Shown here piece after piece: positions 25,636-54,368 of a stretch of 64,000 nucleotides of DNA. The stretch spans positions 11,987,231 to 12,051,230 of the forward strand of contig NC_089325.1 of assembly GCF_036669915.1 (NCBI RefSeq), read 5' to 3'. Position 1 is the first letter of the stretch, and every line of letters begins with the position of its first letter. Both the position numbers and the translations under genes were made by a program. The stretch comes from Pocillopora verrucosa (lineage: Eukaryota; Cnidaria; Anthozoa; Scleractinia; Pocilloporidae). The notes below the pieces were generated by a model. It saw nothing but the letters and a program-made list of their open reading frames with translations. It was not told where the DNA came from and did not search any database.

Positions 25636-25713
25636 GTTATATAACAAGAGCGTCAGACTTTGCACGTGCAATAGGCGCCATGTTTGTTACATAAGGGAAG
25701 ACAGCTGCACGTG
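25636..25713. promoter_or_regulatory. E-box/D-box/E-box module of bZIP-A
   Basis: CACGTG at 25663-25668, D-box TTACATAA at 25687-25694 and CACGTG at 25708-25713, preceded by the palindrome GTTATATAAC (25636-25645). The module ends 150 bp before the bZIP-A start codon. E-boxes are CLOCK/CYCLE-type bHLH sites and D-boxes are PAR-bZIP sites. Motifs are exact; function is inferred. Confidence 0.6.
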
Positions 25714-25863
25714 CCGATATTTTCAACCAATCAGAGTAATCTATGCAACACGACAGCAGAACTCTTGTCATAAACATTACTTTCCTAACATTTTCAGCAA
25801 TAGATAACCATTTTTTGCTTAGTCTCAGTGAGTGTGTACTTCGACTGAGAAGATCGCCAACTC

Positions 25864-26923
25864 ATGATGTCTAGTCGTTCAAGTCCAGCAGCCCCAAACC
25901 AAAGTAAGTCATGGATAGATATCTGTTAGAAAACTCTTCCTTGATCACGTCAATTCAGTAAGTCTAGTTACGTCATCGTTGCAGGCAAGATAGAACGAAG
26001 AGCTGTTTTTTGTCTTGGACTCCTCGTTGTTCGAAGGCTGATCGTTTAAGGCCTTATATCATTCTTCTTTAAAATCAATGGCCATCCCTGGAACGACATT
26101 TTATTTGCATTTGTTGTTACTCAAGAGAACTAAGCTACATGTTACTTGTTTGTTTGTAGGCGATGATAGTGAATCGAGTGACTCGGGTGTCGATACGCTT
26201 TCGACATCCACGAGAGGCAGTTTTCCTTCAGATTATATGGACCTGGATGAATTCCTTTCTGTGCAAACTCAGAACTGTCAGGAAAATACCCAAGCGTCAT
26301 GTGAGGATCCACAAAATTTGTCTCTGGTAGCTAGTACTAGTACCAGAGTTGCTGCTACCACCGTTAGTGGTCTTGTGGAACAAGTTTCTCCAGCGGTCAC
26401 AGAGTTTTCGAAAGTGGCTGCCAGTGTGAACAACGTTTTGTCTTCCGTGGTCTTATCGAAAATGTCATCACTTCCTTTGCAAGTGGACCCAGCCGTTTTT
26501 CAGACCCTCCGAGCAAACACTTCTCAACCAGAGGGAACAAACGCGATTGTACAATGGTGCCAGTCTGTTGGAGGGACAAGGCAAGATCATCAAGAGGCAA
26601 GTGGCCCCCAGCCTGGAAAAACTCCGGTTCGGCGACGTCGAAATTCTAAATACGTCTACAATCCTTTGCCGATCACGAAAAAGGCGGAACGGAAGTTTTA
26701 CAGCCAGTCTCAAAAAGACGAAAGATATTGGGAACGTAGAATAAAAAACAATGTTGCAGCGAAAAGGTCAAGAGACTTACGTAGACAGAAAGAAATTGAA
26801 GTCACTGAAAAGTATAAGAATCTCGAGAAAGAGAACGCCAATCTGAAAGAGGAAGTGCGGAGATTGCGAATGAAGGCCGATGAACTCGAAAAGAAACTTG
26901 CTTCTTTTCAAGGTTCTCACTAA
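25864..26923 (+). CDS. PAR-type bZIP transcription factor A (HLF/TEF/DBP-like)
   Basis: Two exons, 25864-25903 and 26160-26923, join in phase 1 to give 267 residues beginning MMSSRSSPAAPNQ. A DSG motif (21-23) and DYMDLDEFL (38-46) match the N-terminal activation segment of vertebrate HLF/TEF/DBP. A basic proline-containing PAR-like stretch (about 165-200, NPLPITKKAERKFY) leads into the bZIP: ERYWERRIKNNVAAKRSR (201-218), basic region to about 226, then a leucine zipper with regular leucines to about 262. Members bind D-boxes as dimers in the nucleus and are often light- or clock-driven. The upstream region carries exact E- and D-boxes. An in-frame ATG at 26078 lies in the intron and is not used. 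Ortholog assignment among HLF, TEF and DBP is not possible. Confidence 0.9.
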
Positions 26924-27656
26924 GGCTTAAAGAACACGTAGAGACTGAGGGGAGGGATGTGAGTAGTATTTGACGCTGTCGTGACATCAGTATGGATTAT
27001 GTATACGTCATTGCCACTCTTAGCTGGAAGTAAGGGCTTCATTGGAAGTCTGTACCTGGCATACATGTAGTTGACACTAGAATTGTTAGGCAACCAGTGA
27101 CAGAGTTGCATTCAGAATCTTTCTCAAAGCCAAAAACCAGTGAGGCTTCCATAGGACTTATAAGAGAGGAGCTCTAGATGCTAATTGCATAGGAATCAAA
27201 TGCTTAGAATATAATCACAGAGCAATCCCCATCTACTTCACAACATAGTTATTCTCCCAACTACGTACAAGTGTCCTCAGATGAGGACAAGACCCACATT
27301 TAGATGGTGTTACTGGCCTTACGGCGTTGTTGGAATTATTTCTGATATGACAGAATTGGCCCCTTGCCACTGGGTGGTGAAGGGATCATTAATTTCAAAA
27401 TTCCAATTTCCTGCTTCTGAACAGTACTATTTGTTTCATGAGCAAGCTTCTTTAAACGCCCCTTGTACATTGAAGAAATTTTATACCACCAAAGAAGTCT
27501 TTAAGCCATAAAGACTTAGTTTGACAAGGTTTGTAGAAATAGCAATATAAAGGAGTTATTGCTATTTCATATTTGTAAATTAGTCTGAAACTTATCTTTA
27601 TAGATTGAGTGTGTGCAGTAGTACATTTTAGTTTATGCCAGTTGATGGTGTTTAAA

Positions 27657-27662
27657 AATAAA
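27657..27662 (+). other. Polyadenylation signal of bZIP-A
   Basis: AATAAA about 730 bp after the stop codon, followed by a T-rich stretch. It is the first canonical signal downstream. Confidence 0.5.
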
Positions 27663-29467
27663 GTTCCTCTATTCCCAGGAATATCTTTGCTCTTGATTTC
27701 CTATTATTAGTAAAAGATAATTGGTGAACCAAATGCAAAGATCTCATTACCACTTATCATCTGATCATCTACATCATGGGGGCAGAAGTATCAAGTTACA
27801 TCCAATCTACCTGAATTTATGCAAGTGACAAATAAACTTAAATAACTCTAGGGCTGGAACCCAATTTGCTTGTCTGGGTTATGACTACAGACAGATTTAT
27901 GCAATGAAAAGTCTTTTCCTTTAGCAATCAAAAATATGACAACTCTTGATCAGGGAGGTTAGACACATCAACTGACCTTTTGTTAGGAGAAAATGAACCT
28001 GCTATTTCTCCCTAAAATTAAGCCCAGGCTTAGAGATTAAAATTAACACCAAACAAAGAAGCCCTTGTTTGTCAAACAAACTCTCCTTGTTGGAACCCTG
28101 AGAGATGTATGAAGCACAGTGTGGAGAATGTGCATGCTGAAGTAAGGGGACGAAGACGGTGCAATGATGTGATCTGTTGACTGCCCCTGCCTGACAACAG
28201 GACTGTCCAACTACACACTCCTATCCTCAGCAGAGCACACACTGAAATAAGTATCCAAACTGAGTCCCTGATAAGCAATCTTGGGTTGAATTAATATTAA
28301 ATCACTAGAAATGATGGCAATTCATAAGATTTTTGGAAGTCTTGGGGCATTTGCTAATCATCAAAACAGTAACAGTTGATCAGACTCTAAACTGTGCCCT
28401 TCTGTATAAATGATGACTTCTTGATGATATCTTTGTCAGAAAGCAGTGATTATGATGTAAGAAATACCAAGGGCTTCACTTGCCTCTTGCTATAAATACT
28501 AACATCAAGATCCACAGAAATGTGTGAAATTTAAAGGATGAACCACCATCCAAAATTCCTAATTTATTTCTAGAAATAAGTGAGGGTTGTCAAAAGGGCA
28601 AATATTCTTGATATGCCAAAAGGGAATATTTATAGACTCTGAAATTTGACCTTTGGTTTACCTTGGAGATTAGTGATGATTACTTCATCAGGGAGCAGAA
28701 ATGATGTTACAAGAAGTGTTAAGGGGATTCCCAATCACCTCTCATTAATGTCAATATCAAGTTATCAAATTATTTTCGAAAAAAAGCAAAGGGGCATCAA
28801 TTGGCCAAATATTCAAAATTTGTTGAGTTAAAATAGGCAGCTTTGTAAGAAGGGTACAGCTTTAATATGAACCTTTAAATGTGGGGGATGTTAATAGGCT
28901 TTGCTAAAGAAAATGGAAGTCAAAGCAACCCTGATTTCATCACCGACATTTGACTACCAAACAGAAAAGATCAAGAAATGTTAACCTTGTGCAACATACC
29001 TTTAACCCTTTAGGCCTTGGCTGTCACCAGCATCTCATTTCTCCTCATGGTAATACTTCTGAATCATTCATAAGTTCATGAGAATGTAGGAAATGATTGC
29101 CAGCTCAAGAAGCTTCGATTGTTCAACAAATTCTCATCAACAACACCTTGGGAAATGTATGGAGAATATGCATACTGAAGTGAGTGTGTCAAGGTAAAGA
29201 ACAAACAAGTAAGAATCACAACAACACTCGTCTTTCATCTTTATATTTCACCAGTTTATTAACTGTGGCTAGGTTCAATAGTGACAACCCATTCTCTTCA
29301 AGACAGTATGCTGCCTCATAACCAACACTAACGAGAGACGGAAAGTGTCTTGTTTGCCTTAATGAATTGAGATTAGAGAAAATCACCTCTTTCACCCTTC
29401 ACTTATCAGTAATTAAGCATGTAACCAAATTTATTCTGGCTAGCAGGCAAGGGAACAATTTTGGTTC

Positions 29468-29679
29468 TTAACCCTTTAACTCCCAAGATCTCATTGGTAT
29501 TTCTCCTTACTGTCTGCTATACAATTCTTCAGATGTTAATTCTGAGAATTTGGTATTGGATCTACTAATAATCTCCTAATTGATACTTTCCTTGATTCTC
29601 ATCACTTGTCTTCTTGATTTTGTATTGATAATGTAAGGAGAAATTCTGTCTTGGTCACTCATGGGAGTTAAAGGGTTAA
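29468..29679. mobile_element. 212-bp MITE, well preserved copy
   Basis: TIRs TTAACCCTTTAACTCCCAAG and GGGAGTTAAAGGGTTAA, exactly 212 bp, same interior blocks as the 5886 copy. Confidence 0.85.
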
Positions 29680-30976
29680 CTAAAATTATAGGATAAAAAA
29701 GAACCAAGTAGCTTTTTTAATTGGAGAAAAAAAAAATGCATCCAGGGATCAAAATTGTAAAAAAAAAAATAACTACGAGCAAGTTTCTATTATGAAGTAA
29801 AAAATAATCCCACACAATTTTTAAGTGATTTAGTTGCAAACCTTCAGCTCTTATATCTACCTCTGGGGTGTAGCCATGTTTTTGAATTGTTTTAGGCTAG
29901 TCCCCTAGGAAAGTTCCATCTTTGTTTCAACATTTGCCAGAGTCATAATGTTAAAGTCAAGTGTGTGGACAAAAATATTAGGACCAGGCCTTCAGGCTAG
30001 CTACACACCTGTACTTGAAAATTAAATTATAAGTGATCCTGTCAGCTGTAACAGGAATAATAGCATAAAAACTCTGCATGGCTAAATTTCAGGTGATGGA
30101 AATTGGTTGGCACTTAGCAAAGTTGTTTGGGATATACTGATTCTCAGCTTCAAAAACACAGCTGTGAAAAAAGGAGCCTGCTTTTTGCTCTATTTTTCTG
30201 TGTTTATTGTGCTTTGATCAAAGAAATACTTGCATCTTTAAAATTGCTTAATTTTGATTGTAAACAACAAAAGAAAGTTTTAATTCCTAAAGAAAGGTCA
30301 GATATTACTGTGACAAAGTTATTCCTGAGAAAAAAAACTTTCAGTTTCTACCTTCACCCATCAAATAATGTGCAGCCACTACTCGGAGTTTGATTTCTGA
30401 AGAGATCTGCATCTTAGTTACTTAACAGAGGTCTTTCCTTCAGAAAAAATGGCAAATATTACCTTAGAACCAAGTCTTTGACAAAAATTTTCTTAAATGC
30501 TTCAAACATGGAAGCTAAGTCTACACAGCACTGAATCATGAATGAAATTTGACAACTTGTTATAAAATAATAAAAAACATGAAATGAAACAGAAAACCAG
30601 ACAAAAACTAAGTCTGGAAGTCATGTTTCTCTCTTGAAATTGCTCTACAAGAATTAAAATACAAAATTGATTTTTCTGTAAAAGGAAATAACATAAACTA
30701 TCCAAAGTGAATAATATTGTTTACACATAAATTTTTACACTGTGACCAGAATACTCTTTTCGTTGGAGTAACACTTAACTTTTGTTGATTTTTTGCGATG
30801 AAATAAATTACAAAACAACTCTCTCCCCATGATATAGTATATCTTAGTACAAATATACAATCTTATCCAGAAAGTGTACTGGAAATATTTTACTACAAAT
30901 AAAAATTACAAATCTTGTCATATGGGCATGTCCTATGCCACAAATATTGCTCCCTATCAGGAGAGTACATCAAATC

Positions 30977-31157
30977 TAACCCTTAAACTACAAAGATGAG
31001 AACTGAAATTCTCTATTAAACTTACATCTATTTTCTTGTAAATTAGGAAGACAAATTTGGCAGCAAGTCAAAATGACAGCCTAGAACTAATTCACAAGGA
31101 AATTTGCAACAGCTTGAAAGGAGAATTGATGATCAGATCTTGGGAGTTAAAGGGTTA
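30977..31157. mobile_element. MITE related to the 212-bp family, shorter copy
   Basis: The left end CTAACCCTTAAACT and the right end GGGAGTTAAAGGGTTAA resemble the family TIRs. The interior is diverged and about 30 bp shorter. Confidence 0.55.
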
Positions 31158-31435
31158 AGTTATGCTAGATATATTATCAGAGTTGCATGATTGAAAATTC
31201 CTCATAGTAATAAGTTACTCCAGAAAAGAAAAACCTCCTGAACACCATGTTACAGAGAAATTCCACTCTTACAATCAACTTATATCACAAAGAAACATAC
31301 AGTATATATATTTCTCCTTGTCAACATAACTAGCAGTGAACTTCCACAAAATATGCAAAGTCAATATAACTTGTAAATTATGTCCTCCAACTTGGCAAAG
31401 TAGAAAACCAGGTCATGAACCTCCAACACTATTTG

Positions 31436-34400
31436 TCAGCTTGATGTCTCCAAGACTACGCTGCAAACTCCCATTTTTTCGTTGTAGTCTAAGGATATGA
31501 TAAAATCATCCTCATCGACAAAGGCCTCCACAGCTTTATCATCAATTTCGGAGGCAGTCCTACAAGATAATAATCACAAAGCAAAGGGTTTAGAGTAATG
31601 TTTCTATCATTTGTAAAATGAAACTGTAGAAGGAATACATCAGTACAAAACAATCATGCAACATCACATCTGTGCATAGAAGACTGGGTGTCAAAATTTA
31701 AAATTTCACCCTGTGAAATTTTTCTGCTTTAATTTTTTACATATTGTTTTACAGTGAACTGATTGGTTTCAAATAAATTTCACATATTATGTAATGTTTG
31801 TATTTATTTAGCCAGATTGAGGGAAAATTATATGTCACATAAGAAAAGCTGTATTAGACAAACAATATTCTATGCACTGTTATCTCCCACTGAATCTTAA
31901 TACAAGGGCAAGAAACTATAGCAAACACATTGCTGATAAACCAAAAGAGCAGCAACTAAAATTTACTATTGGTTAAAACCTCACCACTTGTCACTTCAAG
32001 AGCAAAATAGTCAAGAAAATAAATTTTAAACCAAGCCAACAAAACAAACTGTATCTGACTAACCAAAATGACAAGAGGTAGGATCACAGATAGCTTGTAA
32101 ATATGCTATTTGTCACTTGCTCTTGTATTCAAGCGCAGTTTGATCAAAGCCCACACAAAGCAACATGAAACAATATTCTCCCCCAACCATCACAATGACA
32201 ACACACTATCACTTGCACACCAAGCTACTTAAGTTCTGACAAGAACCACTCCTGAGACAGACACTGTTACAAAAATTTAAATAAATAGGACTTCTGTTTG
32301 ACAACATGATCTTTTTTGGTGAGTGAAAGGTTATAGAGGTTAGATTTCTTCAAGAAATCCAAACAGAATCATCAAAGCAGACAAACAAGAGTGTACAAAT
32401 TCAGTCTTATTCGAGTCCCTTCAAGACTTTTGTAACCATGTCTACCTCAATGGATATGAAGCACTACAAACTGTGAACCCTTGCAGCATTGACTTTTGAC
32501 ACAAAAGTGCAATTAAGTGGAGTTTAACATTATATCAATGTATACTTCTCAACTGCCAAGCTTGCAAAGGGAAGAATTTCATGTAAAACTGCAGTTCTGA
32601 AAGCCAATTACAGATTTATGTTGGCTTCCACATTATTTCTGGAATAGTCAATCAGAAAATGTTCCTGAATGTTCTTTCTTTTTTCTTTTTTTTTTTTCTA
32701 TTCAAACTGTATATAATGTTAAAACTCCCTTCAGCAAAATTAACAAATACTAACAACATAAGTTCTTTTGGACTACTCATGACCAACAATTAGATAGAAA
32801 AAATAGAAACAGATTTCTTTGAGACTGGTTTGAGATTTTTACAATAAAATTGCTTTGGTATGGCTAGCGTTCTTTTAAAATTCTGTTAAATGTTATGCTA
32901 CCCTGCAACTTCGAAGGTGTGCAAAACTCCATCTGCAGACGTCCAGGAGGCCCTACCAACTGTGCCCACTCAGTTGCTGCAAAATTCAAACAATAAACTA
33001 ACGTACAAAACCTATTTACATTCACCATGCAATTCCGCAGTAAAACTAGATTCCAAACTGTTGTGTCACTTTGTCTATTTTCCTCTAGTGCTCTCAGGTA
33101 TTGAGGAAACCAAGGCCATCACAACACAAACAAAAGAAAACAGGATGTCGTAAAATGAATTAGGAGCAAGGAAATAACTTTCCTGGTTTGAAAATATCTC
33201 CTCAAAGAGTACCTGCCTGCTTGGATTGATGGTCTCAATTTGAGAACCAAGCAAAATCACCATACTGCAAAGACTATTTTTCAATCATTTTTTTCTAGTG
33301 GCTGGGGTCACACTCCAGAACAATCGATCAAAAAAATTCCACAATACCAAACTGTGCCACCTGCATCATTCTACATCCTTTACTTTGTTAGATAAGACAT
33401 AATTTAATATTAAATTTCTGCACTCCAAAGCAAAATAAAAATACTGAGTCAACCCATCAAAAAAAAAATTCTTCCTGTATTTTCATCTACAATTAGATAT
33501 GACAGCTTATTTTTCAGCAAAACCCTGTATAACTTGGAAGTCCATGTTCACTTCAACCAAAATCGAGTATTCATAAAAATTTGGTACCTCAGACCTCCCT
33601 TGAACTATTGTTTACAGATGGAAAGTTGGCAATTTCAAATGTGTGTCAAAGCCTTCAATCCTCTTCTCTTCTGGTTATTTCCTGGGTTATTTTTATTTAT
33701 CAGTTCAATTACTGCATCAAAGTACACTACTTTATAAAACAAGCAAAGTTTAAGGTAGAAATAATTTTGTCTCTGTTTCTTCAAAAACCAGAGTCTTTCA
33801 TTTAAATTTAACAATTTATTACCCTACAAAATTTTGATATGGAGCTTAGATTTATACTAAATACACAGAGGCTCTGTAAGAAATTAGGCCTGACTTAGCA
33901 AAACCACAGCAATTGAACTTGTACCTGTTTAAGATGACTTATATGTTTATGTTATACAGTCAACAGCAAGAAGAATGTTTGTGAGCCACAGCTTGGAATG
34001 ATGCCAGGATAAGTGTGACCCCAGCCCAAATATCAATAACTAGAAATTTATTTTTCATACTTTTGGACTAGAGTAAACCATGCTAAATGCAGTGAAGGAA
34101 CATAAATCAAAGCTAACAAACTGTGTACTGTACCAGTCAGCCTTGCACTGAGGAGGAACATTAGCTACAATCAAAACAGCAACAATCAAAAGGATTATAT
34201 TCCCAGATTAAAGTATACCACTGAGCATGGATAAATTATACAAGTCAATATCCCAATTAGCGCATGACCTGCCAGACTGCAACCTTGAAATTCAAAACAA
34301 TGGGGACACGAAACAAAACAGATCATCCTAATTGAATTTGCCCAGTTTGTCATTTATGAAGTCCATGTCAATGCTACTTTGTGCAATGATACTTGTTTAT

Positions 34401-36687
34401 GGGACACATTTAAGTATACATGTCGGGTTGCATCACAAAGTCAGAAATTAAATGGTGGGATATTGAAATGTGTACTATTTACTCATTCCAACCCTTCCAA
34501 TACCCCCAGCAGTCAATAAACACATGTTAAAAATACAGTACAATGACAAACAGACTTATACACATGGCTTACTAAAACATTTAAGCATCAACACTAATTC
34601 CATTACACTCATGGTTTAGCACTGTTAAGTCAATTAACCACAAATATGCACACAAACAGCCCCAACTTGCTCCATTAGTCCCTTTTAATCCAGATCTTAT
34701 TCACAGAATGGCACAAAGAAAACAAAAGTCAAATAAGCCACAACAACCTTCCTTTGAAATATCGCAGAAACAAATACATATATTTTTCATTTTTTTCCAA
34801 ATGGCCATGTCACATGAGCCATGCTGTGAATAGCACTAGGTAAAAATAACTTTTACTATTGTACCAAACTGATACTCTTCTACTGCATGAAACAAGAACA
34901 ATTTCCCGGGCAAACTAACATCTTCCAAATTGTGACAGTGTAAATTTTAACAATTTTAACAACATGTCAAAAACAGTGTTGTTGTCAGAGTAGAAAAGAC
35001 ATCACTTTGGCATTTTCCAATAATACAATTTATATCTAATTGCAATAAAAGGCAGCAAGCAAGGGAAGGGGTTCATTGAAAACTATTGTATAGTCAGCAC
35101 AAACATGCTGAGACAAGGCCAAAAAGTTCCAAATCTTACCCTAAAAATCAAAATAGTTAGACGTTGTAAACAAACTTTTAATGTTAATTGTTAAAATCTG
35201 AAGACCAAGAACTGAAGTAAGCGTGAAATTTTTATGAAAATTTATGGGACAATAATTTAGAAATTGTATTAAATGGTTGGCCTTCACTTAGAAAATAACA
35301 ACACAAACACCTAAACAATGCACAAAACCAAACGAACTTTGAACTCTCAAAAGAAACATTCCAAAAAAAACCCGTCGAGATCTCGTTGTCAGTTATTGTT
35401 GATGGAATTAAAAACAACAACAGTAAAAAAAACTTGCACTGTCACGATTTCACTCCCTTAACATAAAAATCTCGACGATTCATTAAGATAAATAAAAGCC
35501 TTTTTCATGAAATAATTTACAATTAACGTCAACAACAAAGCCACAAGCGAATATAATAGCATGACAAGGGTAACGAGTTCTGGGAATCATTCCTTTCAAC
35601 CGGATCAACACGACAATCAGCTTTGACGAGTAAATGCAACAGTAATCAAGATTTAATCAGTCGAACCAAAAGTACTAACAAAAAAGAAAAACCTTCAAAA
35701 AGCCAAACTCAGAATTTGAAAGAAATATTCATCGATCGAAAAAATGAATGGAGGTGTAAATAAAACTGGTTAGAAACTGGAATAACAAGTTACCACGTGC
35801 CAAGAAACATGAACTATGAGCTAACCCAGGCCGGCAAACGTGAGTGAAGCGAAAGATACGCCATAAAAATCATGACAGCAAACACGCAAAATAAGCTTCA
35901 GAAGCGCCTCGTAAATTGAAAGGGAGGATGAGAACTAATGCTTTATTTTTCGAATAAATTCAAAACCCTTGAAGTATGCAATATAAATGAAAATCGAATC
36001 TATTGTTTCGCAAAACTCGCTACGACTAACATGGAGAGAATGCAAATCTTTTACGTCTCAATAGTTCACCTTGCAGAACTGAACTATAAAGTAAGCAAAA
36101 TGACTTCTAACACAAACTAAACACGGTCAGCTGTTTCGAGCAAAAACTAGCGACAGCTCACGAGGGGAAAAAAACGTAAACTCGTGCACATACGATCATC
36201 TAGCATGCGTAAGTATACTAAAAATAAACAACTTCGATACTCCCCTTCGTACACACTTCCTGCCTTTCATTTTTGATTTAGGACTAAGATCGTGAAATCT
36301 CCACTCTCTAACGAGATTAAATTCAACTTACCCTTCTTTGCATCGAAGAGCGAAACTCGTGATTGAATCTGACGGAGTGCCGTACTTCTCAGACAACGCC
36401 AGTTTTAAACTCTCGACTGTTACTTCTTCCAGCATTATAGCATTGTACGCTTTCTCGCTCTCTCTGCGTACATATATCGTTAAGGCAGGCGGTGGCCGCC
36501 GAACGACACGTTTAATCCTAGGAGCTAGTTCAAGATCATCGAGGGCGTCCGCAGTTTTAGAAAACGCTTCGTGAGCAGTTCTCTTCCTTGCCTTCTCCCG
36601 TAAATTCTTAAACAAAGGAGTAGAGTACTTTTCTTGGTCAAATTGAGAGGGAAAGCGGGCCTGCATAATCTTGACAACCATATCCAT
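31436..36687 (-). CDS. Protein with grainyhead-like C-terminal dimerisation domain, lacking the DNA-binding domain
   Basis: Two minus-strand exons, 36687-36332 and 31559-31436, join in phase 2 to 159 residues from the first ATG (MDMVVKIMQ). The open frame extends 12 codons further upstream to a TTG and then meets a stop, and an acceptor-like TAG at about 36703 leaves room for a 5' exon that I could not find. The C-terminal ~85 residues (TIYVRRESEKAYNAIMLEE, LSEKYGTPSDSI, DDKAVEAF, EDDFIISL) follow the spacing of the ubiquitin-like C-terminal domain of GRHL/grainyhead, where it mediates dimerisation. The N-terminal ~70 residues (LFKNLREKARKRTAHEAF) are unrecognised. No grainyhead DNA-binding fold is encoded between here and bZIP-B. 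It may be a stand-alone partner or inhibitor, or a truncated gene. The intron is 4.77 kb. Confidence 0.6.
31560..36331. other. Large intron of the grainyhead-like gene
   Basis: AT-rich, with no exon or named repeat recognised. Open frames at 32890-33153, 33534-33805 and 35232-35420 show no domain. Confidence 0.5.
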
Positions 36688-38249
36688 ACACTGAGGACCC
36701 TCTACAGTCCAATTAAAACTCAACCAAACTCCTCAAATCGATTTTCCAGCTCCCAGAAAGGGAAAAATAAGCGAAAGCAACGGCCCGTTGAGCTACTGTT
36801 TAACGCGACTATCCCGGAACTGACAACTCTCGAAATGAAACAAGACTTTCTCCGATAGAAAATTATTTCACAGCCTCTTGAAGCTCTCGAAGGTTTCACG
36901 CTTTGGTAATGTTCTGCCAAGAAAACGAAATGCTACGAAATATATTTGAATCTACATCTTTAGAAACGAAAAACAAGTTATAACAACACACGATGCTGGT
37001 CTCGCTTGACGGTGATAGTCTCGACGGCTTCTTAGTGCTAACCTGGTTGAGCAGGAGTTCCGATCCCCTACCAGTAGGGGGTAGGGATATGTTTATCCTA
37101 TGCATTAAGAAGAAGAAATAGCCATAAGATATTCCAGTTAGCTGTCAGAAAATCAGAGTAGATATAGTCTAATATCTTTTTTTAAAAATTGTCGATACCA
37201 TCGAAAAATTCGACATTATGGAGAATTTTTCATTGTAGCTCATCGTCCCTACTCCAGTGATTCTTCCTATTGCCTGGCTCCGTCATTACTATACGCGTCA
37301 TGGGATAATTAGTGCCAGTTCCTCATGCGTAACGGCTAGACCAATCACAAGCGAAGACGTACATGTGATTTCACGTGCAGTAGTTTCACGGCAAGAGAAG
37401 CAAATATCTAGTTTCCGCCGTTAGTATCTCCTAGACAAACTTGTTTTGACATTTCGTGGGCCAAGATTTGGCTGAATTTCTATAATTTACCCAAATTGTG
37501 GTTTGAAGTTTTTCTTTCGGATTTCACATCGCTCTTAATCCTGACCACAGATTTCGCTTGCGAAAAGCAGATTTAGTTTTGTCTTACTTTTCCGAGGTAA
37601 AATTTTTTGGTCTCCATGTTCTAGGCGAAGGTGATCGAACCTGCAGAGACCAACATCTATGAAACGGTTTCTTTGATATTTCATTCAAAAGTATTTTCTT
37701 CTTTGCGGATTTAAAGACCGTGATACGGTTTTTGTATTTTGTGCCAGGAGCATGCAACCTAAAGATGAGCCAACCACAATTATTTCGCACAAAAATAGCA
37801 ACCCGCACAAAAAAACCGTCTCTTCAGGGGTTTACATTTATAATCAGCAGAGAAAACCGCATTGATAGAACATATATTTTTAGGAGCTCCGAATCCTTAA
37901 AATTTGCATTGCTGGGCGAAAAAGGCTTACGAAAATCACATTTACCGGACCACCGTAAGACCCTAAGTGGCATGCGTGACTAAACGGAAAAAATTCGAAC
38001 CTTAAGGTCATTCAAGGATCTTTCCACATCGGTTGATCCAGTTTCGCAATATTAGCGGTTTGCTTTTTTTTTTTTACCTTTTTTTTTTCGCCACAAAAAA
38101 GGCTAAAGAGGTCACTTTAGCAGTGGTTCCTGGAGGGCACACTGCGTGGCAACAATAGGTTCCAAATGAAATCGCGCACGCAAAAAAAATTTGGTTTGGT
38201 GAGTTCGGCCACGCAAGAATACTCATCTACAACTCGATACCGCGAACCA

Positions 38250-38259
38250 GTTACGTAAC
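38250..38259. promoter_or_regulatory. Palindromic optimal D-box
   Basis: GTTACGTAAC is a perfect 10-bp palindrome and the optimal site of PAR-bZIP/E4BP4 factors. No gene start is visible close by. Confidence 0.4.
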
Positions 38260-39245
38260 CGGCTGCATGATTTAATTTCACAGAGAATTATATTATTATT
38301 ATAAAAAAAAAATTAACACCAAACGACGTTGACCAACTATTACAGTTACGCAAAGCTTCTTCAAAGCGCCCAGGATTTTTCTGAAAAACGGGTTTTCTCG
38401 CGTCCAGATCCAGTTAACGCTCGGCAAACGGGGTTGATTCTTGTTTTTCTCGCCCTAAACATGCTAAACGTGCTCAGCTAGCCTGGATATCGGAAGAGAA
38501 AGATAGCTCGACTTTTTGGTTAAACCCAAGTGATATTCAATCAAATTGGGAAATCATGCAAAGTTACAGTTTTACGTGGAGCGTCTGTCCTCTTGTTTTT
38601 TAGATCTAATTTCCCGTGTTTCTGCTTTCATTGCGATTTAATTATCAAAATTTTATGCAAAGTTGAACAGTTCCTGCGAGAACTAATCATGCCACTCACC
38701 ATGCACCACTGCCCTCACACCATAAAGTTCACGAGGTATTGCGTGTTGAAGAAGCAAAAACGTGATTTTTAACACTCGTCCCACGCTTAACGCGAGTGGC
38801 TGTTTTTACGCAAAGGAAACTCGTGTTGAGCTTCCTTTCGAAATCATGAAAAATTGAAACGAGGCAAATATAGCATCACAAAGAGCTGCTTACAAGACCT
38901 CAAAATGAAAAAAACGAAACAAAACTTAATGAGGCATGAGAAACCGCAAATGCCTAAACACTTTGTGGAGGTGTGCGTTATTTCAAGTTCTAGAAAAATC
39001 TTTGTGCGTAAAGAATCAAAACCAATGTAATTTCCCACTAGTCACACGAGGCACAATAGATGTTTGTCGGAAAAGCTAAGGAGGTGATTGACAGCAGTCA
39101 TTAAAAAGATATATTTTCAAAAACGTAGAGAAGTGCATTTCTGGTCATTTCTGTCGGTAAACGAACTGAAACCATTCACTAGTCTGGGTACTAGTCTCGA
39201 ACACAGACCTTCCTCGGCCAAGCTGTTTACTTGCAGTTGGATCAC

Positions 39246-39424
39246 TTAACACCCTAACATCAGAATGAACATTTTAACGAGAAGAATTTCTTTAACCATT
39301 AAAAGGCTTTTTAGTTAGTGATCGATACCTTAATTCTCGTGACCTTAATGTTTCATTAAGGGGTGATGCAAGTGTAAGTTAGGAGAAATCATACGCTAGT
39401 CACTCCTAGGCGTCAAAGGGTTCT
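39246..39424. mobile_element. Diverged MITE, 212-bp family
   Basis: Ends TTAACACCCTAACATC and GGCGTCAAAGGGTTC, with the internal TTAGGAGAAATC and TAGTCACTC blocks. It resembles the 7432 copy most. Confidence 0.5.
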
Positions 39425-40108
39425 TAAGAGGGAGAAAGGGATAGAAAGAGTGGAGGATAGTCGGCCTGCTTGAATTTTACCTTCCTTCTGAAAATGGAGG
39501 AGGAGTGCGTGTCGGCCTATCCTCTTCCGCCATCTTCCCCCATAAGTCCTTATTGGCTGGCTCCTTCTCGATCCGTTTTGCATCCAACGGTGGACGCTGG
39601 CTAACCTGGATATCTAAGTTATTTTTGCCTGTTTAAAGGTTGATTTTTCAAGACAAATTGTTCTGCCGTAAACTAGGAAGCTAAGCGGAAAAGATTTTTC
39701 AAGAGGAAAGCAACAAATCTCGCCTACAAACTTTTAAATTGGTCGAAAAGAGACTGAGAGGATTCTTAAACAAAGGGCAAAATTAGTTATTCTTTGAAGG
39801 CCCAGTGTTATTTTCAAATGTTTTTTCAAAATCCGAAACACAAATAGCTACCCAGAAATTGCTCTCTTTGTTTGTTGGTTTGTTTGTTTTTCCCTCGCGA
39901 AATAGTTGTTTAGTGAGTTACAATGACCTGGTCATTGGTGTTCGGCCGGCACCCTTGCTTGCGATTCTCTCCTTGACCGAAGGGTTAAGGCCGGAATACC
40001 CGTGACTTTGTTTTTTGAACTACTTTGAGCCTGTCAGTTAACAACTGTGCTTGGGTTAGGAAAGTTATCAAAAAGACCGAACACCAGAAGCTTCTATAAA
40101 ATTGCCGC

Positions 40109-40441
40109 GTTACGTAAAGTTAATCCTAGCATGAAATTCTTCAAGCTTGCCGGTGCCGATGTCCACGCACTTCGCACTCCTTGCGCATTTTGCCGCGATA
40201 ATATAGCCACTTTCTGGTAAAAGTTTAACGTACTGCGTCGATATATTTCGAAACTAATTAGTTGCTTGAAAGCAAACCAGCTAACTTGCGCAGGTGTTTC
40301 CTTCTTCATTAATTACTACTGAGGAGCGCTGCGCAAGCTTTTGCTTCACAGAACCAAGCGACAAGGAAAGTGCACGATAGACAAGGAAGGTCAAGTGGAT
40401 TGTCTCCTCTGAATAGAAAGGAGGAAAAAGCCGGTATAAAT
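40109..40441 (+). promoter_or_regulatory. Possible orphan promoter: D-box plus TATA-like box
   Basis: D-box GTTACGTAAA at 40109-40118 and TATAAAT at 40435-40441. No open reading frame of note follows before the bZIP-B 3' end. It may drive a non-coding transcript or be chance. Confidence 0.25.
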
Positions 40442-41175
40442 GGTGTATGCTTGGTTTACCCTAGCTTCTTGCGAGTGCCGTGATCCGCGCTATCTTCGCA
40501 CTGTCGTCGCACTGTCGTTACACAGTTTCTCTCCAAGTCCGTCTGTTGACACAACGTAATTGTCGTCCCCAATAATAAGGCTATTTAGCTACCAGCGATA
40601 CAGTTAGAGGTGCTCGAGATCTAAAATTTAGAAGCGCGATTTAAGTTCCTTTCTGGTGCTTCGAATCAGATACTTTCAATCTCTCTCAACCCAACCAATC
40701 TCACCATCTCGAGGTTAACACGACACCTGGATGCGAGGTTGCCACATTCCTACCTCGCCAAGTAGTCAGGTTTACAGAGGGAGTTTTCTTTGACCAAGTG
40801 AAATTGAATCGGGCATGTAACCACGATTTAAGCGCTTTGAGCCTTAATTTTCCTTAAATGGGAATATGAGTCAAAGAAAGTCCAGCCTGTATACTGTTCT
40901 AAAGTCGCGATATATTTACACAGGATTGAAGGATACATTTAACCATGAATACTACACCAAGTGTTTCACAGACGACAGGCGTTCCTTAACGCATTAAGAA
41001 TGAATTTTTCATGATGAATACATAAACTATAGCGCTGAGAATAACTTATCTTTACATCCTGAAAGAAGGAATATTGAACTGATATGAAACGCAATTTCCT
41101 TTTAATAAAACACAACGTAACGAGCAAATTGGGAGAAAATATACTCATATATCCTTCTAAAAGTGACTAACTTTG

Positions 41176-43280
41176 TTACACCATAGCGCGCAGTTTTTTC
41201 TCAGCTTTAGAGATTGCCGCTTTCAGTCTCTGAACCTGCCTTCTCAAAGTATTGTTCTCTTTTTCTAGGGTTGAAGTCTTTTTGGCGACCGCAATTTCGC
41301 GGGCTCGTTTAGCTTCGCGTGACCGTTTTGCCGCCAAATTATTCCTTTTCCTTCGTTCCCAGTACTTTTCGTCTCTACCCGTGCTAGGGTTTGGAGAGGC
41401 GCGGCGTGATTTCTTTGCTGAACAAGTTGGCTGAAAATCCTCGTCGTCATCATCTTCTTCTTCTTCTTCCGCTTCTGTATCCTCAGACACTGTAAGCTTA
41501 TCATCATCACCGAACTCACTGTTAGCCTCAGCAGCTATATCCAACGGTTTCACGTAGTTGTGATCAGTGATAACACTGATTTTGTTACGAGTTCTGAGTT
41601 TGCGCTTAAGTGAGTTCCGTCGAACATCTTCCGAAGAACAAACGACTTCGATCGCTGGCTCTTCGACAATGTTCGTAATAGTGTCAGTAGTATCATTCGA
41701 CGAGTAATCAGGGCATGGTTCCTTCAAACTATCCTCAGTGAGATACGGCAGTTTTCCTGACCGTTCATAGTCGACTTTTCCACTAGTTGAAGGCTCAAAT
41801 AAATCGTCCAATAATTTGAAAGGTTCCCCAAAGAAATCACTCGATAAACTGGATAAATTACCGAGTGATTGCGAAGCTACATCGTGTCTAAGCTGACCCG
41901 GAAAGGCAACGCTTTGCCAGGGCTCATCGTCGCCGTCTTCTTTGATCTTTATGTGAGTATACAGTTTACTGGGAAATTCGCCGTCAAAGAGGCACGTGTT
42001 GAGGGTATCCACAAGATTCGAACTCAATTCATTTTCAAATCCAAACAATTGTGGATCACTTTCATTGTCCGCTACACCGGGAGAGGAAGGAGATGAGCTT
42101 AAACCGCTGTCTTCGTCATCATCAAACCCGGACATGTTCTTCTCTGTTGAATTGAAGATAAAAGTAGGTGAGCACATTAACTTTGGACATTGACAGCGCA
42201 AATATAAATCAGTTAGGTGTGGCTGTGATTAGTAGCTCTGTATTGTACTGAGATTCAATAAAACATTATCATGTAAGAACATTCTGAATTGCGTCAGCCG
42301 CGTCGTCCTCTGTAACTGCTAGTGTTGTTCCCAACTTTTCACAAAACTGAACACGCAAAGAAACCGCCCACAAGTAGCACTTCTACGCTGAGAGTCAGGA
42401 ATGGACACTACTGTTATACCCTCTGTCCGAAATAATTAATAACAAAATTCTAAGGAACTTGTAGAAAACTGTTCTCCGGTTCAAATGGAAATACGTTCCA
42501 TACTCTTAAGTAACAAATGCCACATGAGTTTGGAAATTGTTTCAAACGAACATGGTCTATTGTTGTAAACCTTATAGTGTTTTGTTAAACTTTGCTTAAT
42601 TGAGAAAGAGATGGAGGGGCGTATTTCCTTCCTCAGGTCAGAATTCTTCAGAACTACTTCAACAATTACCAAATTTTTTTTAACTACCATGCCACATGCC
42701 ACAATTTAAGAGTACCGTGTAAAGGTGTTCTGCCTTTTAGTTACGCGGTTTTTTTGCCATGTTAACCATTAAAACTTTGTTGAGACAAAGTTGATGTAAT
42801 ATATTAATTTTGTTAAGTTAAATCTTTCGCCACAGACATTGGTTAAAAGACTAAATGAGATTTACACTTTGATACAACATAAACGTAGGGCTGTCCTTAA
42901 AATAAGGCTCGCGCTCTGATGTAACACTGCACGCACCACGTTATACCTGACTGCAGCTAAAAAAATGACCAGGAATATCTTAATGTAGTAAAGGACTTTG
43001 ATCCGGAGGGTTTTTCAAACTCGTCGGATGGCGATATTTCATTCAACTCATCACCAAAATAATTTTAGACACGAGAGACAGTTTCATTTTCGTTCAAACC
43101 AGTGCAAAATGTACCCCATTGAAAACTGTTGTTTTATCGGATGTAAATTATTATTTTGAATTGACCGCCCCATGTGTGGACGGGCAGTTCGCAAGAGTAC
43201 AGCTCGGATATTTAGCAAAATTTTATATTCTCACCCGAAATGTGAAAATTTTCAATTCCATGTGCTTGAAGCAGCTCCAT
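41176..43280 (-). CDS. PAR-like bZIP transcription factor B
   Basis: The main exon runs 42143-41176. A first exon at 43280-43235 (MELLQAHGIENFHIS) has a good GTGAG donor and joins in phase 1, giving 337 residues. If exon 1 is wrong, translation can start at the ATG at 42135 (319 residues). A DSGLSSS motif (27-33 in the long form) resembles that of bZIP-A. A highly acidic Glu/Asp run precedes a basic RR-rich stretch. The C-terminal bZIP (272-337, DEKYWERRKRNNLAAKRSR, then leucines in heptads) has the NxxAAxxSR signature and PAR-family spacing. It lies on the opposite strand to bZIP-C, with a 3.06 kb shared upstream region rich in E- and D-boxes. Function as a D-box-binding nuclear factor is inferred from family. 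Confidence 0.85.
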
Positions 43281-43418
43281 GAGTTTTGACGACGTCTCGT
43301 AAGGTAATCTGCCACAAGATCTGAATCGCTCGCTGACTAGTTTCGCGATGACTCGGTGACTCTTCAAGACTACACTGGTGACAATTATTTCGCCGGTAGT
43401 TTATTTACGAACGAGGGA

Positions 43419-43811
43419 CACGTGCATGCTTCTATTACAAAGGAGTGTGAATCAATTAAATTTCAAACATTTATGTAATGTATTACATAACAAGACATTT
43501 GATTGGTCGACGTTGGTAAACTCACGTTGGATCTCACGTTTCCGGTTTCTTCAGCTTAGACGTAGTCACATTGCAAATTTATGTGTAACGAACCACGTGT
43601 GACGATACACGTGTCTGGGGGAATGTCGTGACTTCGAAGCGCGTGACTGAGCTTTCCGCGATCCAATTTCTATGCGGGCAATTTAGCAGCGATCAGGTTT
43701 TAAAGTAAAAAATTTAATTATCATCGAAATTTTCTATTAACTTGAAGTCCATTTTCCGAAGATTGGAGCAATCTTATCTAATATCTGTCGTGTCACGCAC
43801 GATTATGTAAC
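43419..43811. promoter_or_regulatory. E-box and D-box cluster upstream of bZIP-B
   Basis: CACGTG at 43419-43424, 43594-43599 and 43608-43613 (the last two 8 bp apart). D-boxes TTATGTAA (43471-43478) and TTACATAA (43483-43490) form an inverted pair, and ATTATGTAAC lies at 43802-43811. The cluster starts 139 bp upstream of the bZIP-B exon 1 ATG. A variant site CTTATGCAAT follows near 43834. Confidence 0.6.
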
Positions 43812-46338
43812 TCGCCTCTCTTTTGGTTTCGGCTTATGCAATACAAATCGTTCTTTAAAACCACAACACATGACCGTCCTCGTGAAGAAAGGCTGTCAAG
43901 CCTGTGGTTAGACAGTTAAAATTGGGTGTCCTGTCTCGATAACCATGAAATTTTACAAACTAGTAAGACTTTTGTAGCAAATTAATAGGCGGTCTTTGGA
44001 GAGGAAAGGAGGAAAGCACATTCACAGGTCTTTCCGTTAAATTTCGCTGAACTTTTTTCCCAAATTGACATTCTTATAAACTCTAACAGCACATTGCAGT
44101 CAGCCGTTCTGTTTTGGTTGCGCGTTTACCTTTGTACTTCGGTGCTGCTGTATTTTTTATGGAAAAAATGTTTTTTTGTTATCTCGAAATTGACTACGTT
44201 TGACACTAGGATTCCCCCCATCGTCCGGGATTACAGATTACACTGATAGTGGGTACGTTTTCAGCACGGCATGTGAACGCAGCGCCGAACGCGTGAGATA
44301 TCGCGTTGAACACGCGAAGATAAATTCCATAACTTCAAGCAACCATGTATCATCTTGTTCCTTCACTGACAAGAAACGCTTTCCTTTTCCCTCAACAACT
44401 TGACGGAAGAGTGGAGTGGTACGAAAGGCGGGTAACATGCGGGTAGGTCTTTCAGCAGTGATTGGCGATATCAAATTTATAAGATAAACACTTTTCAGTA
44501 TCTCAGTAAGCCGTTTACTACTGCATTTATTACGTGCTCAACCGTTGAATTATTATTTTTTTTACACTCCCATTTCACAGAACTTTTCCATCTCGCACTT
44601 CCTCGTCTAAATTTTCGATTATCTTTTTTCACAGTACTGTTCTTATCCAGGGAAAGCCCCTATTAAAGATGATCTCTAACCTTGGGCGGTTTCGATATTT
44701 CGATATTTTCATCTGTTTCATTTCCCTCCATGAATTGTGAGAAATGTCATCAGATCAATGATTTACGTTATTCTTTAAGAATATTGGCATTTGATAAATT
44801 GTGGATTTTAAGCCGTTGGAAATATTCAAATTCGTTGGAAAAAAAAACTAATTTCCGGCATTCGATATTACATTCAACGTCACGCGAACAAACATAATTT
44901 TCATTCGATAAGGATGATCACTATTCGATTAAAAGATTATGATTTTATATTAGAAAAATCAACTTCATTCGAAATTACATTGTCTTCGTTAATGTCACCA
45001 TAACAGTGATGACACGACCACAAATTTTCCCGCCATTTATCATCTGTAAATGAAGGATTCATGGACTTAGGCTAAAATTCTGATAGTAGTTATGCACGTG
45101 TAAACTATCTGACCAGACTATGAGCAGTCCTTCTTTCAGCGAAGTCAGCCTGCTGTGTGGAACTTTCTGTCTTTTTCCGCTGACAGTTTAAACACTCGTC
45201 CGAACTACTTCGCTCCCCACAGGATCGAACCTAGGGCCCACTTTGGTTTCTCGAAGGTTCCGGTAACGTAACGGGCTCGTAAAACTATTCTGTTTCCCTT
45301 CAAGATAGGTTTAAAAAAGTTTTGAAAATTAAGAAAATGAATGGATTGGTTAGAGCGTCAGAGCCAGCTTCACCACTCTTTAGATTTCGATTTCAAAATA
45401 TATTTTTGGGCCCGTTATGTTACCGTGACTTTGAAGAAATAGGCCCATGGCGCGGAAAGATTCGAACTATCAGAGCCCTGACCGCCACATATGAAAAATT
45501 TTTGTCGCGTAAAACAAATCCGAATTGATACGAGTGAAGAAAAGTCGATACGCATCGGTCAAACCCTTACTCGTGAGAGAGGAGGCCGAACTAGAGACCA
45601 GTTTGTGTTAACCCTTCGAGACACTAGAAATGCTTTCGGACAGCAAAACAACTATCCAAAAGAAGTGGGTGCCCTGAGAAGAATGAGACATTTGGCAAAT
45701 ACGTCATTTCACTCGTGATATTTTGAGTCGAACACTCGAAGAGAAATTCTAAAAATACGGGTGCCTATTTATTAGTCTCTGTTCAATCAGTATATGAGAT
45801 TCAATATTTTTGTAAATTATAGGTCTACGTTGATCTTATTGGCATTCAATTTTTTTTTCACCTGCACTACTAAACAAAAGGATGTTAATGATGATGACAT
45901 CTTCGGCAAGTTTCGTGTCATCTTCGGTAAGTTTCAGACGTCTCCGGACATAATCGAGTTTTTCTAACAAATGACTCAATGTCAGAACATAAATGTTTGC
46001 CTTTTAGCTCCATGTTACTCGTCTTATCTGCATATTAACGCCCACGGCGTCAAATTGAATGTTTACACCGTCTCGTTCTCTAGACCACTAGTCCAGCAAA
46101 ATGAAAACAATAAATGAATTTTAAATACTCGAGGGAAATCAGTCCGGAGAAAGGTGTCCAATTCTTTGAATTTATTTCAACCATGCCCATTTACAATTGT
46201 CAACTTTTTTTTCTTAGTCATCAAGTTATGCATATCTTCGAACCTTCCAAATAAAAGCTGAAAAGTCATAGCTTTTGTTGATGATCAAAGCCTCGACGGA
46301 CGATATCTTACTAAGGCAGCCACTACAAGAATTCAAAA
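43812..46338. other. Remainder of the bZIP-B/bZIP-C divergent spacer
   Basis: No gene is seen. One further CACGTG is at 45095-45100. B-box-like sequences on the minus strand near 45232 (GGTTCGATCC) and 45449 (GTTCGAATC) suggest decayed tRNA-derived repeats. An ATAAAAG at about 46251 lies ~90 bp before the bZIP-C ATG and could be its TATA-like element. Confidence 0.4.
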
Positions 46339-48766
46339 ATGGCCGCACGTAAATTCATCCCAGGTAATGTTAGTATTATAGTAGTTTAAAAAGAGGGATA
46401 ACTTTACCCAACAGCTCAGCTAGAAATTTCGTATGCCTTCCCGGAGAGCAGTTCATCCTATTCATGCAGGCACTCCCAACTATCACGAGTGAATAACCTT
46501 GGTCAAAACAATCTCTAATTCCACCACATGATATTTATTTTTGTGGCTGAACAAAACCGAATTTATTTTCTTTGACAACCTAAGCCTTCGTCAAGTACTT
46601 AAAGTTAATTCGTACGACAACCCAACTTTTAAAAAACTAGTTTTTGTAAAACAATAGATTAAAGTCCTCGCTAATTATCTTGGATCCCAGATAAATTTCA
46701 TAAGATATCGGCAAAGACATAGCTCCTTGTGCACACGATTTACGGTTTACGGTGGGCAAATTAATTTTGCTAGGTTTTGTAACAGTCCACGAAACTAAAC
46801 TAAAAACTCCCATTTGTGTGAAGTGCTTTGCAATAAATCCAATTTATGCAAAAATCCGAATAGTGTGGACGGCCCTGATTTGAGTTTTTTGAAATTAAAA
46901 TGTCTCATGATCAAAACTTAAAATATTGTCTCACCATGACGCCGAACAGTATGCAAGCAGTTTACTTTACTCTATTTTCGTTAGAGTCAGCATCAATTTG
47001 CCTGTTCGAAGCTTTCACTTGATATTAAAGGTCTTCGTAAATGATTTGCAAACCGGGTATTTAAAATGTACTCATTTCATAATAATTTTACGGTATGTTG
47101 ACCAGGAACAAAAATAAATCCGCGAAACAAGAGGGCTGGTCGACATATATTAGAATATCTACCAAAAAGGAAAGCCAAAATAAAGTTTTGATAGCTGCAA
47201 AAAGAAGGAAAAGTATTTGGCTGATTAGTAACATGGCCTTGTCCATCAAAGACCTCTCTGGTCCTTAATCGAGGCAGTGCAAAGGTGTGCCAAAACCGGA
47301 GACGTGAAATTGAAATCCTCTTGGGGGTCGGATTTTTAGTCGCACACTCGTGACAAAACGAGCATTAAAACCTCTCTCTAAATTTTAAAGCATCTATTTT
47401 TTTTAGTGTGGGGGCCGGTTTTATGCTGTCCTTCGAAAACATGCAATTTTTGTGTTGTTTTAAGCGTGTGGAATGTGCGAGTTCGAAGATCCTGACCATA
47501 CCATATATACCTTAACACAAAGTACTTCTCTAAATGACGCCATGCACAAGGACTTTAATCCCACTCACTCCCATGAATGATAAGACCATAAATTCTCCTC
47601 ACTTTCAAGAAAACTGAAGATGTCGATTAAATAATCAACGATAAACGAAAACTAAAGTAACACTTAAAATTTTATGTGGACGATGAAAGGACCAGGTTTT
47701 AAAAAATAACAGTTTCATGGAACTACTCGACTTAAAAATGCGTCTTTCTTGAATTTTAGAATAAGTAGCACGCAGATATTAGAGATTTCGGGATTCAAGC
47801 GTCGTATCTCTGAAGCATAACCTCAAAAAAAGGTTGATGATTTTAATTTTCCGCTTGAGCACACGAGACTAGTACAAAGAGGTCAGACTAAAAAGTAAGC
47901 TTGGTGTTTGAGGAAACCTTGGCCTCGTATGTTCAGTACAGAATTAAGGTCGAGAAGGGTAGAAAATGTTTCAGTTTAGCTTTAACAATTTGGGTTCTAT
48001 AATGTATAAAAATTCAACGCACGCAATCTTTCAATTTTTCTTTTATACCCCTCTGACAGGCAGAGAAAGATTCTGTCAAAATTTGCCATCTCCCGAAAAT
48101 GTATCAAGTAGAAGTTCACCCTGTTCAACGGTCTTCTCAGACGACGGCAAGGATTACTATGACTTTCAGTTATACAGCCCCCTTAATGTCGACTGCGATT
48201 TCCAACTGACACCTGAACTTACCAGACTCGATATGGCTTCCTCTGCCATTGATTGGCTTGAGAACCTGGATTCATCTCTTCAAACAGAAGGAGGTTCACA
48301 CACAAATGTTGCAGAGGATCACCAGCGTAATATGATGACGTCATACAGGAACGCGGGTGTGGATTGTCAAGTTGGTGCTGCTGTTACGTTTTTCAACCCT
48401 GTACAACCTAGACATGCTTACGGTCCTTCTCCAACAGAGGTTGCCACCTTCGAATGTCATTTTTCTCCTCATTCTTACCCAAAGGATAGGAACAACCTAG
48501 ATTCTGTTGATTGCGTTTCTGATCAGAAATGGAAAAGAAGCAGGTACTCTGTCCCGGATGAATGCAAAGATGAGAAATACTGGAGAAATCGATCACGCAA
48601 CAACATGTCTGCGAGAAAATCTCGGCAAGCGAAGAGAGACAAAGATCGCTTGGTCGCAAGGAAGATGGAGGAACTTGAGAAAGAAAATGCCATGCTAAAA
48701 ATGATGCTGGCAAATTTCATGGTTCAACATCAGCGGCAACAACAGCGCTCGCTTCCTTGGCAATAG
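46339..48766 (+). CDS. PAR-like bZIP transcription factor C (divergent)
   Basis: Exon 1 (46339-46363, MAARKFIP) joins exon 2 (48060-48766) in phase 1 across a 1.70 kb intron, giving 243 residues starting MAARKFIPGRERFCQNLPSP. The open frame continues upstream of the exon 2 acceptor, but that extension is intronic. The bZIP occupies about 179-232 (DEKYWRNRSRNNMSARKSRQ...EELEKENAMLK). The usual AA of the basic region NxxAAxxSR is SA here, and the zipper is short with few leucines, so dimer choice and DNA affinity may differ from A and B. The tail is Gln-rich. The DEKYW lead-in and the intron position tie it to A and B. Nuclear DNA-binding role is inferred from family. Confidence 0.85.
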
Positions 48767-49621: not shown

Positions 49622-53960
<4,339 letters not shown>

Positions 53961-54368
53961 TGAAAGCAAAGTACTTATGCCACGCAAAATCAATGCGCGT
54001 AATAAGTCAACGCGAGGAATAATTGTTCCTTAAATCATAGAGTTGGAAGGAAAATCAAGCCACAAATCGTTCGTTTCCTTGTGTTACTTTCACTTCGAAA
54101 CGTTCCAGTCGCCAATTTCCCAATCAAAATAATATTGTTGTCGGAGCTTGTTTATTCGTTGAGGTTCGTGTTACAGTCGTGAAACGTTCGTAAAACTTCG
54201 TTTTCTCTTCGGTCAAGATGCTTTACTCAGCGGTATAACGCACAACTCTACGTGCGCAAAGTTCGACCTTTGGATTGTTGCGTGTTTCCTGTGTTGATAA
54301 TCTTCATCGATGGACTTTCATATCACACTTTCCTTAACTTTGGTTCTCAACTATTGATCAACGCACAC
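53961..54368. promoter_or_regulatory. Bidirectional promoter of TMEM184C and ETFDH
   Basis: A 408 bp spacer between divergent start codons. It contains two CCAAT motifs (around 54112-54125, GCCAATTTCCCAATC) and no clear TATA box, as expected of a housekeeping divergent pair. Confidence 0.6.

Follow-up and report, generated by a model that had tools for sequence, protein, structure and literature searches.

Can three genes of one transcription factor family, packed into 23 kb of a coral chromosome, serve together as an output arm of the clock, and how did they come to lie side by side? The question is raised by a 64,000-nucleotide stretch of Pocillopora verrucosa DNA (RefSeq assembly GCF_036669915.1, contig NC_089325.1, positions 11,987,231 to 12,051,230 of the forward strand), which we call the window and which is part of a 22-Mb contig, C14; the genome searched amounts to 353 Mb in 52 contigs. 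The window holds three PAR-type basic leucine zipper (bZIP) genes, here named A, B and C, of a family by which animals relay day-night signals. Clusters of E-boxes and D-boxes, the usual sites of action of clocks and light, stand before A and before B; these clusters are the new observation. We lean toward a model in which A and B are driven by the clock or by light via their E- and D-boxes and feed back through D-boxes, with C left unplaced.

Three PAR-type genes in one locus

The long bZIP open frames of A (26042-26923, plus strand), B (41176-42228, minus strand) and C (47963-48766, plus strand) each contain a bZIP_2 domain (PF07716) that scores above the Pfam cut-off of 22.3 bits (Table 1). 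Both this arrangement of three bZIP genes within 23 kb and the lead-ins to the bZIP, ERYWERR in A, DEKYWERR in B and DEKYWRNR in C, are as a sequence-only reading of the locus had given them. B and C lie head to head, with 3059 bp between their proposed start codons, and 14,253 bp separate A from B, with a putative GRHL1_C gene inside.

To which bZIP family do the three belong? All of them combine a core with two Asn and the lead-in [KR]-D-E-[KR]-Y-W. The YW lead-in is a mark of the PAR/NFIL3 group, and it also fits the NFIL3 chain that is the top solved-structure match of A (E 1.2e-9), B (9.9e-9) and C (1.8e-7), in a set of structure matches that included no HLF, TEF or DBP chain. Two Asn in the core mark the PAR and CEBP bZIPs, according to passages of PMC4736632. 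In our main tree, built from 14 bZIP cores over 61 columns and re-run without NFIL3 and again without C and NFIL3, the PAR type splits from C/EBP with supports of 100/99, and of 100/100 in both reduced trees. The three genes all stand on the PAR/NFIL3 side of this split and are not spread over different families, which bears out the PAR character that had been claimed for them; core comparison and tree together rule out the candidate placements of A, B and C as C/EBP genes or as members of different bZIP families.

The likeness to vertebrate HLF, TEF and DBP includes the extended basic region K-D-x-[KR]-Y-W, the NN-x-AAKRSR core, which A and B have, and the charge pattern of the zipper. HLF and TEF, which are PAR proper, carry an N-terminal YMDLDEFL motif, and A has it as DYMDLDEFL. 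Unlike the vertebrate genes, the coral ones lie three to 23 kb, B and C are without DLDEFL, and C reads NNMSARKSR and has a short zipper, with F at the fourth d position and Q at the fifth. Among the seven PAR-type genes that we count in the genome, DYMDLDEFL occurs in A and L013 only; neither B nor C has it in its long frame. A 25-residue query centered on the motif matched nothing besides A itself; because it misses even L013, this query is unfit for counting copies of the motif. Judged by composition, without an aligned PAR reference, no clear proline- and acid-rich PAR domain precedes the bZIP in A, B or C, the best 40-residue windows holding 2 Pro and 8 Asp/Glu in A, 2 and 20 in B, and 6 and 5 in C. 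On these features A reads as the most canonical member, HLF/TEF/DBP-like in its letters and its DYMDLDEFL; B reads as a less canonical PAR-type paralogue, which has an acidic stretch and lacks that motif; and C reads as a fast-evolving, divergent member with an altered basic region.

How many such genes does the coral have? Defining the PAR type as a YW lead-in plus a core with two Asn, we find seven by their open frames among the 21 PF07716 matches in the genome: A, B and C; L013, at 6.52 Mb on C14 and thus on the same chromosome as the cluster, 5.5 Mb away; L012 on C5; and L014 and L015 on C13. Three of the seven lie within 23 kb, and four share one chromosome. Two loci with two Asn and no YW, L016 and L017, may be PAR-like and are excluded from the count and from the trees, and PF00170 adds three places outside the 21 (C4:29332447, C7:19656851 and C7:19620166) that are likewise not in the count. 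The next relatives, named by resemblance, are a C/EBP gene, of which C7 carries two near-identical copies, and, on C11, a C/EBP-gamma-like gene. The two C/EBP-type copies (L009 and L010, about 14.8 kb apart) have identical open frames and 98.9% identity over 8.3 kb; they are either a recent duplication or an assembly duplicate.

First exons

Do the three genes share an architecture, as the sequence-only reading proposed? The short phase-1 first exons of 40, 46 and 25 nt can be reproduced as possible exons. When 400 random points were taken per distance, a phase-1 ATG exon with a donor of at least 7, which we counted as qualifying, was found by chance at 7.5% of them within 300 bp, 35% within 1140 bp and 44% within 1725 bp, and the 8 kb upstream hold nine candidate first exons with a donor of at least 7 for A, one for B and five for C. 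The case for the proposed exon of A is fairly good. That of B, for which an ATG inside the long exon, 8 nt past the acceptor, would be the alternative start, has a 35% chance level when taken alone and gains some support because an E/D-box cluster lies 139-530 bp upstream. That of C is unproven because 44% of random points do equally well; it has no upstream cluster, with zero E- or D-boxes in the 1 kb before it, and the long frame has its own ATG at 47967. The shared architecture can be kept for A and, with the support just named, for B; for C the exon is indistinguishable from chance. In the other PAR-type genes, whose upstream sequence was inspected by eye, no clear short first exon was established.

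E-boxes and D-boxes before A and B

What might drive these genes? We took CACGTG as the E-box and TTAYGTAA as the D-box, with shuffles that keep dinucleotides (20,000 per 600-bp stretch). The window holds 15 CACGTG, against a shuffle mean of 6.7, and 14 places with TTAYGTAA (17 strand matches, against a shuffle mean of 5.3), and 5 of the 15 E-boxes and 5 of the 14 D-box places are no more than 600 bp from where A and B are proposed to start. Two E-boxes (shuffle P 0.0028) and two D-boxes (P 0.0011) lie in the 600 bp before A, and three E-boxes (P 0.00085) and three D-boxes (P 0.0001) in the 600 bp before B, these P values being somewhat too small because the stretch ends (600 bp here; 263 and 530 bp in the ranking given below) were picked after the sites had been seen. 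The joint E- and D-box counts of A and of B were each reached in 0 of 20,000 shuffles. Across 299,219 bases, that is, the window plus 28 loci with two near-identical copies among them, only A and B have at least three sites of both kinds inside 500 bp, where uniform placement expects 0.70 such cases anywhere. A CACGTG adjacent to a D-box near the predicted start is found at A and B and not at C.

Is this combination a trait of the PAR type? Both sites lie within 1 kb of the assumed start in four of the seven PAR-type genes (A, B, L014 and L015) and in one of the 14 other bZIP loci (L018), a difference with a one-sided Fisher P of 0.025. In this comparison the other genes were given assumed starts, and short internal frames stand for some of the loci.

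A known system offers a precedent for the arrangement. In zebrafish, according to passages of PMC2759001, the light-responsive module of per2 consists of CACGTG-N14-CTTATGTAAA and a CCAAT box near the start; its E-box mediates the clock, its D-box mediates the light response, and TEF binds the D-box. Before A, the minus strand reads CACGTG-N12-CTTATGTAAC, accompanied by CCAAT and ACCAATCA, a likeness in sequence. The differences are that gene and animal are others, that A has a second E-box, and that the cluster of B is looser. Genome-wide, E-D-E arrangements whose gaps measure 2-30 bp fill 8 rows, A included, against 1 control row; two of the 8 are the same palindromic place, and three come from a single C13 place. 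At L041 (C13:3269937-3270101), two E-D-E copies face each other at a distance of about 100 bp, and a nearby open frame resembles, by eye, an ankyrin-repeat protein.

Besides the choice of stretch ends and the assumed starts, other results weigh against a clock- or light-driven A and B. At C and L012, neither site comes within 1 kb of where the gene is assumed to start, and L013 has E-boxes only, three of them. An alignment of the promoters of A, B and L013 gave only the sites and chance words. In the 353 Mb, strict per2-like spacing occurs 4 times against 8 for the reversed control, and the order E-E-D is seen in 4 rows against 4 control rows, the cluster of B being missing there because its spacing is wider. 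The promoter claim rests on where the sites are, not on how they are spaced.

Relationships and alternative explanations

Are A, B and C the products of local duplication followed by divergence, as was first proposed? In each of the trees, A groups with L013 (82/83 with 14 cores, 79/80 without NFIL3, 71/79 without C and NFIL3) and not with B or C, and therefore local duplication of the three is not shown. Core identity of A is 66% to L013, its closest relative within the genome, 55% to B and 43% to C; human TEF is nearly as near at 64% (TEF to B, 53%; to C, 42%). B and C pair weakly (73/83 with 14 cores, 69/55 without NFIL3). Neither an A+B+C clade (p-AU, from the approximately unbiased test, 0.119 with 14 cores and 0.109 in the reduced analysis) nor an A+B clade (0.161 and 0.099) appears in the best trees, and neither is rejected. 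A group of A, B, C and L013 is present in the best 14-core tree with support of 20/0 and is not rejected in the reduced analysis (p-AU 0.392); the three dispersed PAR genes form a clade with 97/96 without C and NFIL3 and 89/99 with C in and NFIL3 out, a clade that is not in the best 14-core tree (p-AU 0.37). C has a branch length of 2.75 in the 14-core tree; NFIL3 is also a long branch there, with no firm position. Support inside the PAR type is low, which is again a point against our reading. The first d position of the zipper is V in all four C14 genes and T in the three dispersed ones and in the C/EBP rows; in HLF, TEF and DBP it is I. We posit that the set probably arose by old duplications on one chromosome that also gave L013, with a three-way local duplication as one of several possible orders.

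Could A, B and C still be tandem copies of one ancestor, formed in place, with L013 copied or moved off later and with the similar first exons and promoters inherited? This is a serious possibility, if not the one that we would expect. The V common to the four C14 genes, the grouping of A, B and C with L013, the failure to reject A+B+C, and the E, D and CCAAT sites common to A and B are all in keeping with tandem copying; it sits poorly with the pairing of A and L013 in three of three trees, with a DYMDLDEFL motif confined to those two among the seven, with promoter flanks that fail to align and with the unproven first exon of C. Somewhat less probable, and in our view unlikely, is an independent arrival of A, from the A/L013 lineage, near an inverted local pair formed by B and C: B+C does appear in best trees, the two genes are head to head, and 14,253 bp and the GRHL1_C gene stand between A and B, but the long branch of C makes its placement unsure and the support is low. 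The matches listed do not support a duplicated block that would tie the window to the L013 region or to the GRHL region: beyond the bZIP and GRHL1_C pieces, there are only repeat-like or short weak ones among them (E 2.5e-5 or worse).

The cluster had also been contrasted with dispersed vertebrate genes, a contrast that proves too strong. According to passages of PMC6723592, nfil3-2 and nfil3-3 of gar lie about 26 kb apart on LG6, and these linked PAR/NFIL3-type clock genes of gar and other fishes resemble the coral cluster; they differ from it in being a pair, where there are three genes here, and in being of the NFIL3 type.

Least probable of all, and to our mind quite unlikely, is that the E/D-box clusters are general promoter features without a clock role: CACGTG contains CpG and may be common at promoters, an E-box lies within 1 kb at 4 of the 14 other bZIP loci, and the whole window is rich in both motifs, but in the A and B stretches (263 and 530 bp), CACGTG ranks first among 24 palindromes of the same composition (5 occurrences against at most 1, with 0-1 for each of the others, CpG ones too), and TTATGTAA ranks first among 280 permutations (4 against at most 2).

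A proposed clock-output arm

We return to the preferred model, in which A and B are clock- or light-driven. In this scheme, in which we infer binding, rhythm, the sign of regulation and dimer choice as we do the start sites, CLOCK:CYCLE would act on A and B by binding their CACGTG E-boxes, and the D-boxes there would convey the action of light or of the clock. The products of A and B, in homo- or heterodimeric form, would in turn bind D-boxes of the TTAYGTAA type, among them those before either gene. Each of the two would thereby regulate itself and the other, and the pair would constitute a clock-driven output (feed-forward) arm. C would share the 3-kb region between B and C or have other regulation.

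Which dimers might form? The zipper charge balance is +6 for A-A, +4 for B-B and +5 for A-B, with +6 for HLF and TEF; A, B and L013 are attractive among themselves and with one another (+4 to +6), and C has +4 with all seven. A with L014 also gives +6, and charge balance therefore does not predict partners, which counts against the model. We speculate further, with considerable doubt, that the locus could be a compact self-regulating clock-output node, in which the PAR proteins made at the locus regulate themselves and one another through their promoters, and in which the 3-kb B-C region, as a single control region, serves both a PAR activator and a divergent partner.

Coordinates and neighboring genes

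Table 1. Features of the window, in positions of the 64,000-nucleotide stretch.
Feature	Position	Strand	Basis
Further D-box upstream of A	25440-25447	-	Motif scan
Gene A promoter-like module	25663-25733	.	E-box 25663-25668, D-box 25687-25694 (minus orientation), E-box 25708-25713, ACCAATCA 25726-25733
Gene A proposed first coding exon, 40 nt, phase 1	25864-25903	+	AAA/GTAAGT, donor 8/9; E/D-box cluster directly upstream
Gene A long exon: DYMDLDEFL, extended basic region, bZIP, stop included	26160-26923	+	Open frame, PF07716
Gene A bZIP domain	26714-26869	+	PF07716, 46.0 bits
Probable next exon of GRHL1_C gene	31439-31573	-	48% to L030 over 33 aa, immediately following the stretch that 36331-36732 matches
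Open frame with exon of putative GRHL1_C-domain gene, between A and B, not bZIP	36331-36732	-	57.1 bits, profile 2-54 of 90; donor-like AGG/GTAAGT at end
Gene B long exon: acidic stretch, bZIP, stop included	41176-42143	-	Open frame, PF07716
Gene B bZIP domain	41218-41373	-	PF07716, 50.7 bits
Gene B proposed first coding exon, 46 nt, phase 1	43235-43280	-	CGG/GTGAGA, donor 7/9; E/D-box cluster from 139 bp upstream
Gene B promoter-like cluster	43419-43810	.	E-boxes 43419, 43594, 43608; D-boxes 43471, 43483, 43803; ACCAATCA 43500-43507
Gene C candidate first coding exon, 25 nt, phase 1	46339-46363	+	CAG/GTAATG, donor 7/9
Gene C long exon: divergent bZIP, Q-rich tail, stop included	48060-48766	+	Open frame, PF07716
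Gene C bZIP domain	48566-48709	+	PF07716, 34.5 bits, heptad reading

The GRHL1_C piece between A and B looks like a gene. A GRHL gene with a CP2 domain stands on C14 at about 7.01 Mb, and the piece contains parts of two exons of that gene, fused. We nevertheless reject a processed retrocopy, since the piece has a donor-like end and its domain seems to go on at 31439-31573. Elsewhere in the window are a 7tm_1 receptor piece (20334-20783, plus strand), a Solute_trans_a (Ostalpha) gene (49622-54029, minus strand), an ETF-ubiquinone oxidoreductase gene (54668-61923, plus strand) and a CwfJ_C_2 piece (62986-63429, minus strand); Rfam at gathering thresholds and a tRNA scan gave no match. On C14 outside the window, the chromosome of the PAR cluster and L013, a tandem array of the cryptochrome/photolyase type at 8649319-8678144 accounts for 21 of 28 genome exon matches, some of them with stops. 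One cryptochrome of this array, L046, has one E-box and one D-box in 4 kb, 890 bp apart.

Meaning for cnidarian clocks

PAR genes expanded independently in cnidarians, according to passages of PMC4736632. Nematostella likewise has a cnidarian PAR-bZIP set, a to d, and there the genes are diel: as reported in parts of PMC7222589, expression peaks in the daytime for a and d and at night for c, and parts of PMC10188108 also have PAR-bZIPa and c as diel. The gene numbers of c and d are 22 apart (NVE8107 and NVE8085; PMC7222589, in part), and a table in PMC10188108, with a different numbering, gives close numbers for Cry1a (8109), Cry1b (8041), PAR-bZIP-a (8136) and PAR-bZIP-c (8448). If Nematostella gene numbers follow chromosomes, the linkage of PAR-bZIP and cryptochrome genes would be old. 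Among the literature matches listed (titles and abstract openings, mostly of openly readable papers), none describes a cnidarian PAR-bZIP gene cluster or E/D-boxes at such genes.

What would follow if the locus were such a self-regulating clock-output node? The E/D light-responsive promoter logic of vertebrate per2 would then be present in cnidarians, animals without period genes, and if the E/D module is light-responsive here, that logic would be either older than period genes or independent of them. Being compact and having E- and D-boxes at two of its promoters, this PAR-bZIP locus offers a direct test case for the clock-output arm.

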